Under the pieces are notes generated by a model, which did no database searches, was not told where the DNA came from, and saw nothing but the letters and a program-made list of their open reading frames with translations. Positions 1-25,128 of a stretch of 25,212 nt of DNA are shown here, in pieces. The translations under genes and the position numbers were made by a program. The DNA is from a virus. The stretch covers positions 1 through 25,212 of the IMG/VR virus record IMGVR_UViG_3300024262_000221; one strand, 5' to 3'. Position 1 is the first letter of the stretch; every line of letters begins with the position of its first letter.

Positions 1-96
1 GATATAGTATGTAGCCTCTGCTTGCGAGTCGAACTTAATGCCGTCAATAATTGTTTTGCGGTTATTGTACTTATTGCCTTTTGTGCGGTAAAACAT
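1..96 (-). CDS. DUF1064-type nuclease-like protein, N-terminal fragment
   Basis: The gene starts at the ATG at 96-94 and runs off the left edge, leaving about 32 residues. The visible part has a lysine/asparagine-rich start, KYNNRK, then a segment reading IDGIKFDSQAEATYY. This matches the opening of phage DUF1064 proteins (basic K-Y-x-N-K-K-T start, then DGIxFDSKxEAxxY), which belong to the restriction-endonuclease-like (VRR-NUC/Holliday-junction-resolvase-like) group and usually sit among replication or recombination genes. Its start overlaps the stop of the antirepressor-like gene by one base (TAATG), so the two are probably co-transcribed and coupled. Catalytic residues lie outside the window and could not be checked. 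Confidence 0.7.
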   Translation of the reverse strand, partial: MFYRTKGNKYNNRKTIIDGIKFDSQAEATYYI

Positions 97-749
97 TAAA
101 TATCAAAATTAAATTTTTTAATCCAACCGTTGATTATGTTAATTGCTAATTGATAATCCTCAAACACATATTCGTTAATTGAACGTCTGCCTACTTGTTC
201 ATGTAGTTTATTCCATATATTGTGATATGGTTGTTGACTTCTAATTGCCAAGGCTCTTACTCTCTCATTAAGTATATCTTTTTGTCCTTTACGTATGGGG
301 AAGTTAGCAGTATCCCCCTTAAGCATGGCAACGTCACCCTGTAGCTCTCTAATATCACTTTGATTTCTTTCTGCAAGTTCAACAACCGCAAGTAATGCCC
401 TCACAGTATCACTTAATCCACCCGTTACAATTTGTTGAGGAGGTTTGTTTTGTTGAATTACTTCTTTAGCAATATGTTTTTTGTAGTTCTTTTCATTTTC
501 ATTTACGCTAGGATTGATTGAAAACTGATTACCTCTATTAGAGTCTTTCATATTTAGTAAAATTGCTAAACCCTCTTCACTAATATATCTAGACCTCCTA
601 TAATCACCCTCACCCTTTGTGTAAATTATATTATTTTTAATATGTCCAATATAATTTTGAATCAACCTATGTATTGATGTAATTGATACATTTAATTTAC
701 CTGCTATATCTTTAGCATTGTAATAATTTTGACCATTTATATTTTGCAT
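96..749 (-). CDS. Antirepressor-like DNA-binding protein (HTH + ORF6C-like)
   Basis: A 217-residue protein. Residues 9-31 (YYNAKDIAGKLNVSITSIHR region) look like a winged helix-turn-helix, followed by a YISEEGLAILL segment typical of phage antirepressor N-terminal domains. A middle linker contains a short coiled-coil stretch. The last 60 residues (RVRALAIRSQQPYHNIWNKL ... YVFEDYQLAINIINGWIKK) resemble ORF6C, the C-terminal domain of phage antirepressors. The reading frame stays open back to 899, but that stretch crosses a transcription terminator, so I take the ATG at 749, which lies just downstream of a good promoter (780-808). No Shine-Dalgarno site is seen. The role is probably lytic/lysogenic control or control of the downstream early genes; this is inference from domain architecture. 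Confidence 0.65.
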   Translation of the reverse strand: MQNINGQNYYNAKDIAGKLNVSITSIHRLIQNYIGHIKNNIIYTKGEGDYRRSRYISEEGLAILLNMKDSNRGNQFSINPSVNENEKNYKKHIAKEVIQQNKPPQQIVTGGLSDTVRALLAVVELAERNQSDIRELQGDVAMLKGDTANFPIRKGQKDILNERVRALAIRSQQPYHNIWNKLHEQVGRRSINEYVFEDYQLAINIINGWIKKFNFDI

Positions 750-779
750 GTATAATGTTGTTAGTTTATATGCAAAACT

Positions 780-808
780 ATTATACCATTTTGTCGAGCC
801 AATCGCAA
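780..808 (-). promoter_or_regulatory. Promoter for antirepressor-like gene
   Basis: Minus-strand TTGCGA (808-803), a 17-bp spacer and TGGTATAAT (788-780, extended -10). Predicted transcription starts about 25 bases before the ATG at 749. The same stretch also fits the Bacteroidota pattern (TTG at 802-800, 19-bp spacer, TAGTTTTG at 780-773), so the sigma-factor type cannot be settled from this site alone. Confidence 0.6.
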
Positions 809-826
809 TTTGGTATTTTTTGTTGT

Positions 827-861
827 AAATAAAACCCCCTGTGCTGTAGGCATACAAGGGG
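827..861 (-). terminator. Rho-independent terminator at end of late operon
   Basis: Minus-strand hairpin with an 8-bp stem, CCCCTTGT (861-854) against ACAGGGGG (842-835), one T-G wobble, an 11-base loop, then TTTTATTT (834-827). The plus strand has no T-run after the stem, so it acts on minus-strand transcripts. It separates the lysis module and the control region from the antirepressor-like gene. Confidence 0.75.
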
Positions 862-868
862 CGTGACA

Positions 869-905
869 GTCCAATTAGGACAAATATTAACAGTCCCATA
901 AGGAC
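869..905. promoter_or_regulatory. Tandem dyad sites GTCC-N5-GGAC
   Basis: Two 13-bp dyads, GTCCAATTAGGAC (869-881) and GTCCCATAAGGAC (893-905), set exactly 24 bp apart with similar flanks (CAGTCC...GGACAAATA). They lie at the predicted start of transcription from the TGATATAAT box at 912-920. They could be a double operator, or two small hairpins in a short RNA that ends at the terminator at 827-861. Confidence 0.5.
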
Positions 906-11436: not shown

Positions 11437-12984
11437 TTAATTAGTTGTTACAGTCCACCCCTTACCGATTAGATTGTTTCTTGCCGTTATACCAGCTCCA
11501 GTAGGTGCTCCATTTGTTCCACCTGATACGTTCAGTACTCCACCTGTCCAACCCTTAGTATCTAAGTCAATTAGCAACTGATTAACATCAGAGGTAGGTA
11601 TGGCACAACCATCAACTCTTATACTGATTCCATTAAGAGTACCTGTTAGTGGTGTAATATCGAATGTCTCTAAGGAACAATCATAGAATAACATTTGAGT
11701 TATTGCTCCGCTACTAGCAGGCAATATAACTTCAGTCATCAATGGATTAGCATAGCCTTGAACTAATCCAGATAGATTTTGAACAGGTGATAAATCTAAA
11801 ACACCTGTAATATTGCAAGTGTGGAAGTAGAAATTATTAAAAGTAGAAGTAGTAGAATTTGGAAATGTAACTCCTGTTAATTTAGGATTATTCTCTAATC
11901 GTAACGTGTTATGCAATCCAGTCATAGGTGATATATTTATAGCACCTGTGAGGTCGCAATTATACAATTCACAAGTAATATTTTTAGAGGTTGCAGGGAA
12001 AAGAACGGTTGTTAGCTTAGGGCAAGAATGACTCCTAAATGTACCTGATATATTACTGCCCAAACCTGATGTATCTAATTCTGTAATATTATCACTATTA
12101 TTAGTTAAAAGGCTGGTTATATCCAAACCACTACCTGATAATACAGGGAATAATATCTCATCCCACGTGTTGGTATTAAGATTAACAATCGAGCGTAAGC
12201 GTTTAAACCGCCGTAAATCCAGTGTTCCTGTTGCACTTGTTAGATTATTAGCCGTAATAACTACGTCACGTGTGTTATTTTCTGTTGCAGAAAATGTTAC
12301 AGTCTCAAGCAACGGACAACCTCCAATATCATATGCACCATAAGCATATATTCCTTCACCTGTCATATCTAAGCTTGTAATCTTAGGATTGTCTCTAGTA
12401 CGGAGTGTATTACCATCACCAGTAAGACTTGGTAACAATAATTCAACTAATTCATCACAATTATTAGCTAAAAAAGTTAAGTTATTTAAAAAGCTAGCTC
12501 CTGAATAATCAGCTCGCACAATATTGGTTTCATGAAGTTCGTGTCTCGGTGAAGAATTAGGTATCACTCCAGTAATAGTTAATTGAGGCATTCTTATATC
12601 GTTATTCGATATAATTAATCTATTCATCACATCATTATCCTCAAGATTAATTATATCTGTTACATATCCGCCAGCATCAAAGTTAGATAATTCGAACCTT
12701 GTAACATCGTTAATATCGTTGAAGATAAAATCAACATCGTAAAATCCAGCCGATGAATAAGTCTTAGTTTGAGTCGTCAACCCTGACCCTGATACACCAT
12801 TATATGTAGTGCTATCACCATAATCAACAGTGTAATTAGCTGTATTATTCCTTAAGGCCCAAGTGAAACTTGTTCCATAGAACTTAACACGGATAACATT
12901 ATCTGGAACTGGTGGGGTTCCGCCTCCACCAAAGTTTCTACCTTTACCTATATGTATTTTTTTAACTGGGGTAATTAATACCAT
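11437..12984 (-). CDS. PKD-like plus leucine-rich-repeat surface protein
   Basis: A 515-residue protein. After a short Gly/Pro-rich N-terminus (GRNFGGGGTPPVP), residues about 30-90 look like a PKD-type Ig fold (VDYGD at 53-57 and TYSSAGFYDV at 75-84). The remainder has about ten irregular repeats of the BspA-like LRR kind (NNLTFLANNCDELVELLLP; NPKLTGVTFP; DLSPVQNLSG), then a C-terminal cap ending GKGWTVTTN. BspA-like LRR proteins bind surfaces and are common in Bacteroidota and their phages. No signal peptide is seen, so it is probably a virion protein: a head decoration, appendage or receptor-binding protein. Its gene lies between the head and tail modules. Confidence 0.65.
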   Translation of the reverse strand: MVLITPVKKIHIGKGRNFGGGGTPPVPDNVIRVKFYGTSFTWALRNNTANYTVDYGDSTTYNGVSGSGLTTQTKTYSSAGFYDVDFIFNDINDVTRFELSNFDAGGYVTDIINLEDNDVMNRLIISNNDIRMPQLTITGVIPNSSPRHELHETNIVRADYSGASFLNNLTFLANNCDELVELLLPSLTGDGNTLRTRDNPKITSLDMTGEGIYAYGAYDIGGCPLLETVTFSATENNTRDVVITANNLTSATGTLDLRRFKRLRSIVNLNTNTWDEILFPVLSGSGLDITSLLTNNSDNITELDTSGLGSNISGTFRSHSCPKLTTVLFPATSKNITCELYNCDLTGAINISPMTGLHNTLRLENNPKLTGVTFPNSTTSTFNNFYFHTCNITGVLDLSPVQNLSGLVQGYANPLMTEVILPASSGAITQMLFYDCSLETFDITPLTGTLNGISIRVDGCAIPTSDVNQLLIDLDTKGWTGGVLNVSGGTNGAPTGAGITARNNLIGKGWTVTTN

Positions 12985-14058: not shown

Positions 14059-15288
14059 TTATTTTAATTTTAATCTGATATCTACTAATTGTTTAGCACC
14101 GTCATCATACGTTTTAATTCCGTATAGAGATAGTAGTTTTACGTACATACCAAATTGTAAAGGTATTTCAGTAGACCTTACAGTTGGTGCGATTTGATTG
14201 ATCATGTCAATCGCCCCTTTTCTACCAAACAATAAATGTTTAGTCGCTTTATCAGCATCAAATCCATCAGCTGCAGCAGTTAATGTTTCAGATACAGTCA
14301 ATTTTCCACCTTTATAGTAGATAGTAGCTGTATTTGCTGTATCATCGTTAACTGCAGAGAATTTCAACACTGCTTCTTTTTGGTTTTGACCAGTAAGAGC
14401 AACGTGATTAGCATTAGTTAATGCAGGATTGTTAATAGCTGACACTAAGTTAGCTCTAGTAGCATCCGCACTAGCACCAATCAATACGTTACCAGCAGTT
14501 GAACCAATTGTAGATACAAAAGTATAAGTGTTAGTTTTTACACCAGTAGGTGATACATAAGACAATACTACTGTATCTCCATTTGTTGGATTAGTTGCAA
14601 GGTTTAGTACTTGAGAAGATGTATAGTTGTTAGTCAAGAATTGATCCATACCATTGTAGGCAATCATATTCCCAGTAAAACCATCTTTAGTTATTTTATC
14701 ACCAAAAGCTGTAGCTCTAGAACCAACTTGAGAATTAATTACTGACCATTCTTGAGGAGAAATACAACCGAATAAATTGCTTAACTCTACATTTTGGTCA
14801 GCTAACTTCTCAAACACTTTAGAAAATACATCAAAAGCATTTCCACCATTAAAATCAATTGCGTTACCTGAAGTTCCACCAAAGTCACCCATGTCAATTA
14901 CAGAAGTAGCATTGATAGCTTCAAATTGTACATCAGCATCCATTACATTAGTAATGTTAATCATGGCATCTTTACCATATTGAGCCATGATATTGTAATG
15001 CGATTGAGCCTCCTCAACATCATCTACTGAGAATAATGCTGCTGCTTTTTTGTTAACTTGTAAGGATTCTTGTGTAGATGTAATATCTTGTACATCCATA
15101 TCAGAACCTAAAGCATACGGTTGTACATAAGTAGAACTTGGTAGTGGTCTGTTAAATGTATCACCATCTTTAAGAACCGCTTCACCTCTAAAATTTGTAA
15201 ATTGTCTATAAATAGCACTTTTTTTATGCAAAATTTGCATTGTTTTAGCCCAATAAGCTGGGTTAAAAGCTGTCAATGAATTACTCAT
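14059..15288 (-). CDS. Major capsid protein, P22-like HK97 fold with inserted domain
   Basis: A 409-residue protein. The N-terminal part (NPAYWAKTMQILHKKSAIYR; GDTFNRPLPSS; VNKKAAALFSVDDVEEAQ) and C-terminal part (GKKGAIDMINQ-like segment at about 356-366, then QFGMYVKLLSLYGIKTYDDG) match P22-type coat proteins of podoviruses. Between them, residues about 226-345 form a separate Ig-like or accessory module (NGDTVVLSYVSPTGVKTNTY, GNVLIGASADATRANLVSAI) that is widespread as an insert in phage coat proteins. It follows the scaffold gene and precedes a decoration-like gene. A six-bp stem with an AT-rich loop (15290-15316) lies directly before the ATG. Confidence 0.85.
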   Translation of the reverse strand: MSNSLTAFNPAYWAKTMQILHKKSAIYRQFTNFRGEAVLKDGDTFNRPLPSSTYVQPYALGSDMDVQDITSTQESLQVNKKAAALFSVDDVEEAQSHYNIMAQYGKDAMINITNVMDADVQFEAINATSVIDMGDFGGTSGNAIDFNGGNAFDVFSKVFEKLADQNVELSNLFGCISPQEWSVINSQVGSRATAFGDKITKDGFTGNMIAYNGMDQFLTNNYTSSQVLNLATNPTNGDTVVLSYVSPTGVKTNTYTFVSTIGSTAGNVLIGASADATRANLVSAINNPALTNANHVALTGQNQKEAVLKFSAVNDDTANTATIYYKGGKLTVSETLTAAADGFDADKATKHLLFGRKGAIDMINQIAPTVRSTEIPLQFGMYVKLLSLYGIKTYDDGAKQLVDIRLKLK

Positions 15289-18186: not shown

Positions 18187-19680
18187 TTACCACTTTATTA
18201 AGCTTTCGGCAAATGAATTCACCATTGGTCTACCCAAAGAATCATATTGAATCTTGAAGTCCTGATTAGTTGGTTGATTAGTTGGTTTAATATGATAAAC
18301 CGAAAATAACATCTGTAACGCATCTATAACATCATCATGTCTACCCCTCGGAAATGTTTTTAGCTGGTGTTCTATGTCATACATATCTTGTCGCCAATAT
18401 ATAAGTCCATTACGGATAGGATAATCTAACTTTCTAATCTTCTCCTCTTTACTTCCTTTTTGTGTTAATTCTTCAACGATTGTATATATGTTTTTTTCAC
18501 GTAAAGCCTGTTTAAGAAATTGACCCAACACTGTTTGTGCTTGATACGCTTCTACCCCTATTTTTTCTGGTTTCCATTTGTTAGCATGATATATAATTTT
18601 ATTAATTACATCACTAGCCTGCATACGTATATTAGAATATTCCAATACATACATTTTCCCCTCTGTATCAAATCCGCCTGTAAGTATGCACGTTGGGTCA
18701 TTATGGTCTTTTGTCTTGAATCCTGGATCAACAACCGTAAACACTCTAAGCCCTTTTGGTATTTCTTCATAATATCTAAAAAATTCTTCATGAAATTCTT
18801 GAGCATCTTTATTAGTTGGTTCTTGCTGATATTGAGTAGAAAACACCGCAGGATTATTACTTCTTATCAATTCTAAAGCCGACAAAGGAAACCTTTCAGG
18901 ATGTATAGGTTCGCCTGCTTTACGGTGGTCTTCATCATGCGTAGCTATCGCTGGTACTATTACTGTGTCCCACTGCATACCGCCTATCTTAGCTTTGTCC
19001 ATTAAATAACCGCACAAATCATTTTCATGCGTTCTTTGCATGATTATAATAACCGCATCTTTCTCAGGATTAAACAACCTAGACATCACAGTGTTATCAA
19101 ACCATCTATTGACTGCTTCACGTTTTATGTCAGAATTCGCTTCATCTGGTTTTATTGGATCATCGATAATAAATATATTAGCCCTTTGTCCAGTGATTGT
19201 TCCCCCTACCCCAGTAGCTAAATATTGTCCACCGTCTACATTCTTCCACAACGCTTTTGTGTTTTGATCGTCTCTAAGACTTGGTCTACGAGGGAATATT
19301 AATTTGTACGTATTAGAATTATAATAATCTCTGGCTTGACTACCGAATGACTGTGTAAGATTAGCTGAATAACCGCTAGCTATGATTTGCAAATCTGGAC
19401 GTTTACCTAAAGCCCATGTTGGAAAACATTTAGTCACTAATTCTGTTTTACCAGTACCAGGTGGAATGTTAATAATCAATCTATTACATTTACCCTTTAG
19501 CACCTCTGTTAGCTTTTGTGCTATTAACTCATAATGCCAGTTCATTTGAAACGGCTTGTTTATTTCATTAGCAAAAAAGAACTCAATAAACGATAAAAGG
19601 TTTTCTCTTTTATCTTCATGTCTTTTTTCTAAAACTCTGATAGCAGTTTCTCTTACTGCTGCATGTTTTAAATCGTTCAT
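18187..19680 (-). CDS. terL: Terminase large subunit
   Basis: A 497-residue packaging motor. ATPase domain: Walker A PPGTGKT (73-79), Walker B IFIIDDP (169-175) and a coupling segment IIIMQRTHENDLCGYLM (211-227). Nuclease domain: VVDPG with D318, KIGVEAYQ with E377, and GRHDDVIDAL with D449/D450 and D453, the three acidic metal-binding positions of RNase H-like terminase nucleases. Length and motif order match Terminase_6 family proteins. It cuts genome concatemers and pumps DNA through the portal. Its start overlaps the small-subunit stop (ATGA), so the two are translationally coupled. Confidence 0.95.
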   Translation of the reverse strand: MNDLKHAAVRETAIRVLEKRHEDKRENLLSFIEFFFANEINKPFQMNWHYELIAQKLTEVLKGKCNRLIINIPPGTGKTELVTKCFPTWALGKRPDLQIIASGYSANLTQSFGSQARDYYNSNTYKLIFPRRPSLRDDQNTKALWKNVDGGQYLATGVGGTITGQRANIFIIDDPIKPDEANSDIKREAVNRWFDNTVMSRLFNPEKDAVIIIMQRTHENDLCGYLMDKAKIGGMQWDTVIVPAIATHDEDHRKAGEPIHPERFPLSALELIRSNNPAVFSTQYQQEPTNKDAQEFHEEFFRYYEEIPKGLRVFTVVDPGFKTKDHNDPTCILTGGFDTEGKMYVLEYSNIRMQASDVINKIIYHANKWKPEKIGVEAYQAQTVLGQFLKQALREKNIYTIVEELTQKGSKEEKIRKLDYPIRNGLIYWRQDMYDIEHQLKTFPRGRHDDVIDALQMLFSVYHIKPTNQPTNQDFKIQYDSLGRPMVNSFAESLIKW

Positions 19681-20108
19681 ATTGTTAACTCACCTATAAT
19701 ATCCATTAATTCATCATCAGTGGCTTGAGCTATCTTATTGATATTATGCATAAATACTCTCTTATTGTCCTTCTCAAAATAGCCTAAGTGCTTGCCAATT
19801 AGCTCGTACCCTTTAAGGGCGACATTTATTTGACCTGTTTCTTTTCCTATGTTGATAATCTCAACAATACCATTAGTTACATATTGTATATCAACTTTCA
19901 CACGTTTAGCTTCTTCTTCTCTTAATGCAGTCAAGTGTTTTGCAATTTTTGGACGCTTTAAAACATTGCAACCATTATCAGCATGCCGTAAATCATTACT
20001 ACAATTATACCCTGCTACTTTAGAGGCTTCTGTTGCGTTGCCAGTTTTAAAATAATGTAAACAAAAACGACGTTCTTTTTCTGATAAATTACCTTTTTTC
20101 TGCATCAT
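19677..20108 (-). CDS. terS: Terminase small subunit
   Basis: A 143-residue protein with the N-terminal pattern of the Terminase_2 family: LSEKERRFCLHYFKTGNATE, ASKVAGY and a conserved helix-turn-helix extending to LKRPKIAKHLTALREEE. The central helices would form the oligomeric ring, and the C-terminus (MDIIGELTI) could contact the large subunit. It recognises the packaging site on the genome. The start could be either of two consecutive ATG codons (20108 or 20105). Confidence 0.85.
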   Translation of the reverse strand: MMQKKGNLSEKERRFCLHYFKTGNATEASKVAGYNCSNDLRHADNGCNVLKRPKIAKHLTALREEEAKRVKVDIQYVTNGIVEIINIGKETGQINVALKGYELIGKHLGYFEKDNKRVFMHNINKIAQATDDELMDIIGELTI

Positions 20109-20133: not shown

Positions 20134-20370
20134 TTATACTATAATAAATCCACCTGCACAAATGATATCTACATCGTCCATATCTTCGTACCCCATGGTT
20201 ATACTTGGTGGCAAATCTACGCCATAATCATACGACGTGCAAAAGCCACTTACAATCAATTGTGAATCATACAATTTTTGTATAGTGGCTGATAAGACAT
20301 TATAGACAAAATCTATATTATCTTTGTCTAGTATCACTGATATTTCTAATTTATACTTTTTGGCAATCAT
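20134..20370 (-). CDS. Small protein upstream of terminase, function unknown
   Basis: A 78-residue protein from the ATG at 20370 (the frame could open at a TTG at 20379). Sequence of mixed helix and strand, LEISVILDKDNIDFVYNVLS, with an acidic C-terminal half (MGYEDMDDVDIICAGG). Not recognised. It overlaps the preceding gene by 20 bases in a different frame, so coupling is likely. Confidence 0.55.
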   Translation of the reverse strand: MIAKKYKLEISVILDKDNIDFVYNVLSATIQKLYDSQLIVSGFCTSYDYGVDLPPSITMGYEDMDDVDIICAGGFIIV

Positions 20371-20554
20371 TATATACAACTTTAACCGCTTGATTCATTA
20401 ATTTTTGCCTAGATACTTTTTTGTTTTGTTTCTTTAATTTGTTGTACACTTTTTTAATCGTTTCAGTTAAAGCAATAACTACTAAAGGATTATACTCATT
20501 GATTTTATCAAAAGGGAAATCGGCTTCCTTAAGAGCTGTATCTAACATAGACAT
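20351..20554 (-). CDS. Small basic helical protein, function unknown
   Basis: A 67-residue protein, MSMLDTALKEADFPFDKINE then NPLVVIALTETIKKVYNKLK and a very basic end (KKQNKKVSRQKLMNQAVKVV). The frame also opens at 20575, but that would overlap the preceding gene by 20 bases; the ATG at 20554 comes one base after its stop (TAATATG). No family recognised; a DNA-binding or structural role would fit the charge but is not shown. Confidence 0.55.
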   Translation of the reverse strand: MSMLDTALKEADFPFDKINEYNPLVVIALTETIKKVYNKLKKQNKKVSRQKLMNQAVKVVYNDCQKV

Positions 20555-20555
20555 A

Positions 20556-20708
20556 TTATTTTTTCTTTTTACCAAACATAATTGAAACCATAGGCATGAT
20601 CATTTTAGATTTTCTTTCTAGCTTTGGTTTTTTCTCCATCATTTTCTCCATTTGTTTTTTTGAAGGTCTTCCTTTTTTTGACCCATATGTCCCTTTACCT
20701 TGTGGCAT
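20556..20708 (-). CDS. Small Lys/Met-rich protein, MxxGKGTYGSKxGRP type
   Basis: A 50-residue protein from the ATG at 20708 to the TAA at 20558-20556. It begins MPQGKGTYGSKKGRPSKK, an opening I know from many small phage proteins of unknown role encoded near packaging genes, and continues with a Lys/Met-rich helix and a tail MVSIMFGKKKK. The Gly/Lys-rich start resembles an AT-hook-like or nucleic-acid contact segment, but this is inference. Confidence 0.6.
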   Translation of the reverse strand: MPQGKGTYGSKKGRPSKKQMEKMMEKKPKLERKSKMIMPMVSIMFGKKKK

Positions 20709-20860: not shown

Positions 20861-21112
20861 TTAAATTCTCATAAAAGCAACATGATCAATAGGCACAAAA
20901 TGATATATATTATCTTCATCATGTATAATTTCGTGTGCTTGATTTAGAAAATATATGTGAGTATCGAGAGTGTAATTATCCTCTACATCACCCACTGCAA
21001 CCACTACTCCGTGATTAGTATATTTTTTTTCGCTAGATATATGTATGCCTGATGCTGTTGTGTCATTAAGTTGTTTAACCACAATATACCCTGGTCTTGG
21101 ATCATATTTCAT
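20861..21112 (-). CDS. GroES-like co-chaperonin
   Basis: An 83-residue protein (start at the ATG at 21112, four bases after the previous stop; the frame extends to a TTG at 21130). It follows the GroES/gp31 pattern: basic-proline start and first strand RPGYIVVKQL (6-15), a mobile loop at about 17-31 containing SGIHI (21-25) at the place of the GGIVL contact motif, then HGVVVAVGD (34-42), a turn region, a strand with THIYFLN, and the closing FVPIDHVAFMRI (72-83) at the place of the family's final strand. Phage co-chaperonins cap host GroEL to fold the coat protein. Its place directly upstream of the packaging and head genes fits that role. Recognised by motif, without a search. Confidence 0.75.
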   Translation of the reverse strand: MKYDPRPGYIVVKQLNDTTASGIHISSEKKYTNHGVVVAVGDVEDNYTLDTHIYFLNQAHEIIHDEDNIYHFVPIDHVAFMRI

Positions 21113-21116
21113 TTTA

Positions 21117-21335
21117 TTACCCATTATCAATTGTGTTAAGTATTATTTTTTTATATCTATCAACTAACTTCAACATATCGACCTTCACGCTGTCTGTCTT
21201 TTCGCACTCCATAATAAGCGATTCCAACCTCTTTATACTTTCTAATTGTTGAGCAACTGGTGTATTATCACTAGTTGTCAACTCTTGAGTATCTAGTTCT
21301 ATAGTAAACCCTCCCACTCTTATTTTATTTGTCAT
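21117..21335 (-). CDS. Small protein upstream of co-chaperonin, function unknown
   Basis: A 72-residue protein: a beta N-terminus (IRVGGFTIELDTQEL) followed by a helix with coiled-coil character (VAQQLESIKRLESLIMECEK, KVDMLKLVDRYKKIIL). Not recognised. It overlaps the preceding small gene by 11 bases and lies four bases before the GroES-like gene, so the three are probably one operon segment. Confidence 0.55.
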   Translation of the reverse strand: MTNKIRVGGFTIELDTQELTTSDNTPVAQQLESIKRLESLIMECEKTDSVKVDMLKLVDRYKKIILNTIDNG

Positions 21336-22784: not shown

Positions 22785-23309
22785 CTATTTATATTCCCAT
22801 ATATACCCCCCTGCAGTGTGTTGCCTACCTTTTAAAGCATCGCTTATAGTAACAATTCCAGTTTCATGGACGGCAGATTTTATGCTTTTATACTCTGCAA
22901 TTTTTTTATTATCTACTGTAAACTGAATAACTGGTCTATATCTCCTCCAAGACCCATTTCTTCCTTGTTTATCTCTATAAATTGAGTTTTCTTTATAGGT
23001 AACCCATTCTAAATTATTAACATGGTTGTTACTTGGGTTGTTATCTATATGATTAATACAAGGTTTGTTTTTTGGATTAGGAATAAATGCCATAGCAACT
23101 AACCTATGTACTTTTTTCATTAAACATCTTCCATTACATAATCTAAGTAATAAGTAACCATCTTTATCTAAAGACTGGCTCATAACCTTTCCTTTTCTAT
23201 AAGCGACAAAATTTTTATGAGCTGTTTTTCTATTTAAAGACCTAACACGTCCTAAATTGCTAACTTCATATCTTCCTTCATATCCAATTACAGATTTCCA
23301 TATCTCCAT
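22785..23309 (-). CDS. NUMOD4-HNH homing endonuclease
   Basis: A 174-residue free-standing HNH endonuclease of the phage homing type. Residues 1-26 are NUMOD4 (EIWKSVIGYEGRYEVSNLGR with RVRSL after it). The HNH_3 core spans about 66-105: KVHRLVAMAF (H68), CINHIDN (H87), NPSNNHVNNLEWVT. The C-terminal 45 residues (VIQFTVDNKKIAEYKSIKSA to the final GGYIWEYK) form a NUMOD1-like DNA-binding repeat. Such enzymes cut phage DNA lacking the gene and spread it by repair. An in-frame GTG at 23315 is an alternative start. It separates two small-gene groups, which fits an insertion. Confidence 0.85.
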   Translation of the reverse strand: MEIWKSVIGYEGRYEVSNLGRVRSLNRKTAHKNFVAYRKGKVMSQSLDKDGYLLLRLCNGRCLMKKVHRLVAMAFIPNPKNKPCINHIDNNPSNNHVNNLEWVTYKENSIYRDKQGRNGSWRRYRPVIQFTVDNKKIAEYKSIKSAVHETGIVTISDALKGRQHTAGGYIWEYK

Positions 23310-23335
23310 AAACACAAGGGTTAATTATCCATGTC

Positions 23336-24273: not shown

Positions 24274-24564
24274 TCATGTGTTCGTTTCTTTTGAGTCAAA
24301 TGGACGAAAGTCAAAGCCGTAATAATCCTCTTTATGCTTAATTTCTGTGTTATGTGCTTCTACATCTTCATTTTCCAATTCTTCATCGAAAGCTCCATGT
24401 TCTTTTTGGAACTTTTCATTGATAATTGCCCCTTCAATCAAGTGTCTTATATCTGATTCTACCTCTGATATAATCTTCAACACTTCACGTGTAGATTTAT
24501 CGTCTAATCGTGAGTATTCAATTCGCTCCTTAATAATGTTCAATAGTTCTAGTTTTTTATTCAT
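24274..24564 (-). CDS. Small acidic protein next to repressor-like gene
   Basis: A 96-residue protein: helical N-terminal half (LELLNIIKERIEYSRL, REVLKIISEVESDIRHLIEG) and an acidic tail (FDEELENEDVEAHNTEIKHK) ending with DYYGFDFRPFDSKE. Not recognised. Its start codon lies in the 18-bp block TTAACGAAAACAAATGAA, shared with two neighbouring starts, and overlaps the stop of the XRE gene. It is the last gene before the terminator at 24146-24170. Confidence 0.55.
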   Translation of the reverse strand: MNKKLELLNIIKERIEYSRLDDKSTREVLKIISEVESDIRHLIEGAIINEKFQKEHGAFDEELENEDVEAHNTEIKHKEDYYGFDFRPFDSKETNT

Positions 24565-24775
24565 TTGTTTTCGTTAAATTATTAATGTCTACACCTAGTA
24601 TATCACACAATGCAATAAGTGTATCAGCACTTACTGTATGTCTGCCAGATTCTACATTCGATATATACTTGATGTGCTTACTTATTAATCTGGATAAATC
24701 AAACCCTGTAATACCTTTAGCCCGTCTATATTTTTTAATATTTTGAGCAATAATTTTTTTTTGTTCGTCTTTCAT
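24557..24775 (-). CDS. XRE-family (Cro/CI-like) DNA-binding protein
   Basis: A 72-residue protein made of a single helix-turn-helix domain of the Cro/C1 type: IIAQNIKKYRRAKGITGFDL (about 8-27), recognition region SRLISKHIKYISNVESGRHT (28-47), then VSADTLIALCDILGVDINNL. The pattern of R-x-x-x-G, the hydrophobic spacing and E-S-G-R-H are standard for the family. Such small proteins act as repressors or Cro-like switches. Palindromes at 24063-24082 and near 996-1014 are possible targets. It lies in a tightly packed string of small genes at the right end. Confidence 0.85.
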   Translation of the reverse strand: MKDEQKKIIAQNIKKYRRAKGITGFDLSRLISKHIKYISNVESGRHTVSADTLIALCDILGVDINNLTKTNE

Positions 24776-24777
24776 TT

Positions 24778-25128
24778 TTATTCGTTAATTAATTGTAAAT
24801 AATGTTCGGCTTCGTTACGATTAGACCTTTCCTCATCGTTTTTCAAGTGTTGCCAATCCCCGGTAGCCTGTGCGTATTCTCGACGATTATCACTATCTTC
24901 ATCGTTTTTCAAGTGTTGCCAATCCCCGGTAGCTTGTGCATACGCAAGACGATTCAACCAGTTTTCATCATCCTTAAGGTGATTCCAATCACCAGTCGCC
25001 TTAGCATACTCTCGGCGATTCAACCAGTTTTCATCATCCTTAAGGTGATTCCAATCACCCGTAGACTTAGCATATTCAAGACGATTATACCTACCCTCAC
25101 TATTTTTTAATTCTTCTAATTTGTTCAT
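24778..25128 (-). CDS. 22-residue-repeat protein (NRxxYAxATGDWxHLKxDE)
   Basis: A 116-residue protein made almost wholly of five tandem 22-residue units (residues 7-28, 29-50, 51-72, 73-94, 95-116). The consensus is LKxDExxxNRxxYAxATGDWxH; the last unit diverges and ends in EAEHYLQLINE. Each unit probably forms a helix and a loop, giving a solenoid or a repeated peptide-binding array. Strongly charged, no membrane segment, no recognised family. The gene just upstream, cut by the window edge, encodes the same repeat and overlaps its start (ATGA). Unit identity at the DNA level suggests recent repeat expansion. Function unknown; the company of an XRE regulator suggests an early, host-directed role. 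Confidence 0.7.
   Translation of the reverse strand: MNKLEELKNSEGRYNRLEYAKSTGDWNHLKDDENWLNRREYAKATGDWNHLKDDENWLNRLAYAQATGDWQHLKNDEDSDNRREYAQATGDWQHLKNDEERSNRNEAEHYLQLINE
24781..25110. repeat. Five in-frame 66-bp coding repeats
   Basis: Five consecutive 66-bp units encoding the 22-residue repeats. Units two and three from the gene start share long identical stretches (around 24961-25058), as do the next pair (24833-24863 against 24899-24929). Period is exactly 66 bp, so changes in copy number keep the frame. Confidence 0.8.

Follow-up and report, generated by a model that had tools for sequence, protein, structure and literature searches.

The window analysed here, a linear IMG/VR record of 25,212 bases, encodes on its minus strand an 83-aa protein (20861..21112) that is a divergent member of the GroES/Cpn10 family. 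We consider it very probable that this is a phage co-chaperonin, presumably a ring that lids the GroEL of the host, and that it serves as an accessory function and is no constant component of head assembly in this phage group. Phage carriage of GroES in general is already well known, and viral GroES proteins of 78–90 aa are already in databases; the present case contributes a co-chaperonin that has diverged strongly, from a phage lineage in which no other copy was found. It is also a case of gain or loss, in which near relatives share the coat protein and apparently not the lid, and it raises the question of what a GroES of its own gives a phage.

According to the list of open reading frames and their translations, the gene runs from an ATG at 21112 to a stop codon at 20861, and the plus strand has no open frame over 20861–21112. 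A small conserved gene for a 72-aa protein (21117..21335, minus strand) lies upstream, its stop codon ending 4 nt ahead of the start of the GroES-like gene. Downstream, and read in the same direction within about 7 kb, are the genes for the terminase small subunit (terS, 19677..20108; Pfam Terminase_2, PHROG 51), the terminase large subunit (TerL, 18187..19680; PHROG 38, E 8e-109), the portal and the 409-aa major capsid protein (14059..15288; PHROG 267, E 9e-15), all on the minus strand. A GroES-like co-chaperonin beside the packaging genes, as proposed in a preliminary description of this DNA, is thus borne out by profiles, by the predicted fold and by the place of the gene, some 0.75 kb upstream of terS. 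Two further minus-strand features of this end of the window are a free-standing NUMOD4-HNH homing-type endonuclease amid small genes (22785–23315) and a 116-aa protein consisting mostly of four near-identical repeats around YAxATGDWxHLKxDE (24778–25128).

Family membership and predicted fold

The 83-aa protein matches the Pfam Cpn10 profile (PF00166) with 21.9 bits (E 1.9e-4) against a curated cut-off of 21.1, a thin margin of 0.8 bit, and the match spans mainly residues 9–45; in the search of the genome the score was 20.6 bits, or 21.4 when in-frame neighbours were included. PHROG 3188, "co-chaperonin GroES", also matches (E 2.7e-4), and all eight NCBIfam matches are GroES models, albeit with low scores, none of which reaches its cut-off (best 20 bits, versus 96–142 for the listed models). 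Two GroES profiles built without the query, one from ten sequences (E. coli and nine phages) and the other from 41 viral GroES, gave 17.6 and 18.2 bits, respectively, whereas the best of 5,000 shuffles of the same protein reached 10.7 and 12.0 bits. Direct homologues were found neither by protein search of viral contigs and annotated phages nor in the related records described below, and phmmer returned no match among PDB sequences.

Structure prediction agrees with this assignment. AlphaFold2 without an alignment gave a model with a pLDDT of 47.7, for which 10 of 36 Foldseek matches in the PDB, including ranks 1 and 2, were Cpn10/GroES proteins; none was significant, and the scoring also uses amino acids, not shape alone. 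The pLDDT rose to 78.7 when the input alignment held 36 GroES homologues taken from viral contigs, four of which were included despite a host-like look. This more confident model is biased toward the GroES fold because its alignment consists of GroES proteins, and it shows compatibility with a GroES barrel, short of proof. Its top PDB match is the Cpn10 structure 1p3h (probability 1.00, TM 0.73, E 2.5e-3), and among viral proteins it matches best GroES of about the same length (78–88 aa). GroES-like domains of quinone oxidoreductases were matched as well, as expected for a fold that also occurs in those enzymes. A Cpn10 match above the Pfam cut-off together with a GroES-like model is the opposite of what would have spoken against the preliminary assignment, namely no such match and another fold. 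That the resemblance is fortuitous and the protein a small beta-rich one of some other fold might be suggested by the weak score and the low-confidence single-sequence model, but is scarcely credible in view of a score above the curated cut-off and above all shuffles, the agreement of three libraries, and a Foldseek list enriched in GroES even without an alignment.

A probable lid without a roof

The motifs listed in the preliminary description are found in the order given there: RPGYIVVKQL (residues 6–15), TASGIHIS (19–26), HGVVVAVGD (34–42) and FVPIDHVAFMRI (72–83). Identity to E. coli GroES is 20%, the retained parts being P5, the strand YIVVK, the loop TASGIHIS, the strand GVVVAVG and the last strand. 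The core of the mobile loop, TASGIHIS (21035..21058, minus strand), aligns to KSAGGIVLT of GroES, and within it SGIHI (residues 21–25) falls on GGIVL, so that a hydrophobic tripeptide follows a glycine as in a GroES mobile loop; from this alignment, the IHI patch should bind the apical domain of GroEL. Residues 21–30 form the block of lowest confidence in the aligned model (mean 61). A histidine in the middle of the tripeptide also occurs in the GroES (SGLHI) of L058 (4001–5910), a 381-kb jumbo-phage contig in which an adjoining GroEL gene completes a chaperonin pair of the phage's own. A lengthened mobile loop of the gp31 type is absent: 21 residues separate K13 from G35 here, versus 24 between K13 and G38 in E. 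coli GroES, and the loop region is thus about 3 residues shorter.

Two further elements are missing. Alignment to 41 viral GroES shows that the roof beta-hairpin, which is not obligatory in the Cpn10 family, is absent at GDVEDNYT (residues 41–48; 20969..20992, minus strand), where about 9 residues are lacking. In the same alignment, the query also lacks the VxVGD turn that follows the roof, with YTLDT (residues 47–51) in its place; this turn is typical of Cpn10 and no formal criterion of membership, and its loss, as read from the sequence, lowers confidence in membership and marks divergence. In an alignment of 37 sequences, five of six nearly invariant columns are off consensus (47, 49, 50, 51, 53), with V37 and the sole invariant glycine, G41, retained.

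The protein therefore shares with cellular GroES/Cpn10 the loop signature, the GVVVAVGD strand, the closing strand and a predicted barrel, and differs from it in length (83 versus about 97 aa), in the missing roof hairpin and in the replaced VxVGD. T4 gp31 is likewise phage-encoded, very divergent and roofless, being functional at 14% identity to GroES (PMC6318259), and its structure (1g31) matches the aligned model with a TM of 0.70 in Foldseek. However, the mobile loop of gp31 has 22 residues versus 16 in GroES, and the lack of a roof together with this longer loop is believed to let the cage accommodate the 56-kDa gp23 (PMC6318259). Since gp31 is roofless too but longer-looped, the likeness is confined to the roof side.

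Rooflessness is shared with 6 of the 41 aligned viral GroES (L079, L091, L095, L096, L099 and L110; IMG/VR, 84–88 aa), which, like BFVD entries of 78–90 aa, belong to the same length class and carry the same deletion. Unlike the query, however, these six keep VKVGD; that of L096 scores 45 bits on Cpn10, far above the query, and in L096 and L110 the gene lies among replication genes, whereas in the window it lies ahead of the terminase. Comparable arrangements in small phages include podoviral HTVC023P-type pelagiphages, of which GroES is a core gene (PMC9599517), Shewanella phage 1/44, Psychrobacter phage D'Alembert and Pseudoalteromonas phage B8b, a siphovirus whose authors cite previous examples from myo- and podoviruses (PMC4294664). 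All have a GroES gene without an annotated GroEL in the stretches examined, and in D'Alembert it lies about 2.3 kb before TerL; these phages nevertheless belong to other lineages, and the GroES of 1/44 and D'Alembert are longer and better recognised than the query. Where annotated small phages carry GroES, it lies within the head-tail module or close to TerL. PF03237 recognised a TerL in only 4 of the 41 viral GroES records, too few to gauge how often the two genes are neighbours. At least 73 viral contigs had GroES relatives, though a number of these contigs are probably of host origin; Southern Ocean viruses often carry GroEL/GroES analogues (PMC8407431). Phage GroES genes are thus common, including in podoviruses and in roofless forms of 78–90 aa.

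By analogy with GroES and gp31, the protein would be made during infection and assemble into a heptameric ring. The SGIHI-bearing mobile loops of this ring would attach to the GroEL apical domains, so that it caps the folding chamber. Neither the window nor six relatives searched yielded a GroEL gene, and the GroEL of the host must therefore be assumed. The phage lid may act instead of or beside host GroES, so that phage proteins would fold better; alternatively, the benefit may lie in securing the supply of lids during infection. Because the roof hairpin is missing, the lid should be open-topped as in T4 gp31, and because the loop is not lengthened, a taller chamber is not expected. The clients are most likely one or more phage proteins, as these precedents suggest.

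The same anatomy could be read as a GroES barrel that has been repurposed and is no longer a lid, for example as a binding or assembly protein or as a decoy that blocks host GroEL. The loss of the roof and of the near-invariant VxVGD would fit such a change, as would a polar histidine amid the binding tripeptide and the lack of a detectable copy in relatives, whose shared head genes do without it. We regard it as unlikely, since the T-A-S-G-I-x-I loop signature is among the best-kept parts of the protein, as expected under selection for GroEL binding, GLHI also occurs in the jumbo phage that encodes its own GroEL, and gp31 shows strong divergence to be compatible with lid function (PMC6318259). 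Similarly doubtful is an open ring or plug that sits on GroEL without acting as a folding lid, a reading that takes up both the retention of barrel and binding loop and the loss of roof and turn motif.

A variable slot ahead of the terminase

The nearest relative found is the 33,566-base record L002 (IMGVR_UViG_3300038701_001372), whose genes are collinear with the window and whose TerL, portal and coat are 75%, 67% and 67% identical, respectively; L005 (a record of 34.3 kb) has a TerL 63% and a coat 48% identical to those of the window. The order of the genes points to circular permutation of the genome. The window is without about 8 kb that L002 has, comprising what we take, by eye, to be RusA-like, Erf-like and NinB-like genes.

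The GroES-like gene occupies a variable slot between collinear genes. This is bounded upstream by the 72-aa gene (homologue at 778–969 of L002) and, toward the terminase, by a conserved 74-aa gene (20351..20575, minus strand; homologue at 1732–1926 of L002, 40% identical). In the window the slot holds the GroES-like gene and, as second occupant, a lysine-rich 50-aa ORF (20556..20708, minus strand) with no match in L002, whereas the corresponding interval of L002 is filled by a pair of unrelated genes (79 and 105 aa). TerL, portal or coat matches led to 35 related records, 11 of them at least 30 kb long and some possibly incomplete; Cpn10 searches detected no copy in any of these. Sensitive profile searches of the whole of L002, L005, L034 and L031 and of parts of others gave noise, no match outside the window being better than an E of about 0.5, although a divergent lid in these relatives could be missed, as the query itself barely passes. 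Near relatives thus appear to manage without Cpn10. Scans of 84,980 species genomes with TerL and portal for prophage relatives found none.

These relatives bear directly on the earlier proposal that this coat protein, which carries an inserted domain, depends on a modified form of the chaperonin cage. The gene does share strand and direction with terminase, portal and coat, and gp31 provides a precedent for coat folding (PMC6318259). Nevertheless, the proposal is not supported: L002 and L005 have the same insert-bearing coat, aligned throughout, and no detectable Cpn10. An enlarged cage was likewise considered and rejected, since the loop is shorter than that of GroES and the coat, judged from its 409 residues, has a mass of about 44 kDa, versus about 56 kDa for T4 gp23, the client for which the larger cage of gp31 is invoked (PMC6318259). 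With a short mobile loop and a coat smaller than the size for which enlargement is invoked, a dedicated factor for folding this coat is very improbable, and nothing ties the lid to it. We thus retain an accessory co-chaperonin as the preferred reading.

Other genes and start signals

Other parts of the window also differ from L002. A 515-aa protein with weak BspA-type leucine-rich repeats (11437–12984, minus strand) shares about 22 N-terminal residues with its counterpart in L002 (8916–9656), which has a different body; its sequence suggests a virion adhesin in which a shared anchor carries interchangeable domains. An anti-repressor-like protein (96–899, minus strand; 52% identical to 22730–23386 of L002) and an HTH regulator (24557–24775) hint that the phage is, or once was, temperate.

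Shine-Dalgarno sequences are absent from most genes of the window. In 10 of its 28 genes, TTTAAC or TTTAAT occurs about 8–18 nt before the start (e.g. 24564, 24042, 13410, 10733 and 1502), compared with a mean of 1.6 and a maximum of 6 in 2,000 shuffles. This motif could be a non-Shine-Dalgarno initiation signal of the host group, and few Shine-Dalgarno sequences would fit a host that initiates without them, such as one of the Bacteroidota, as a hint only. The same motif precedes the start of 11 of the 33 genes of L002.
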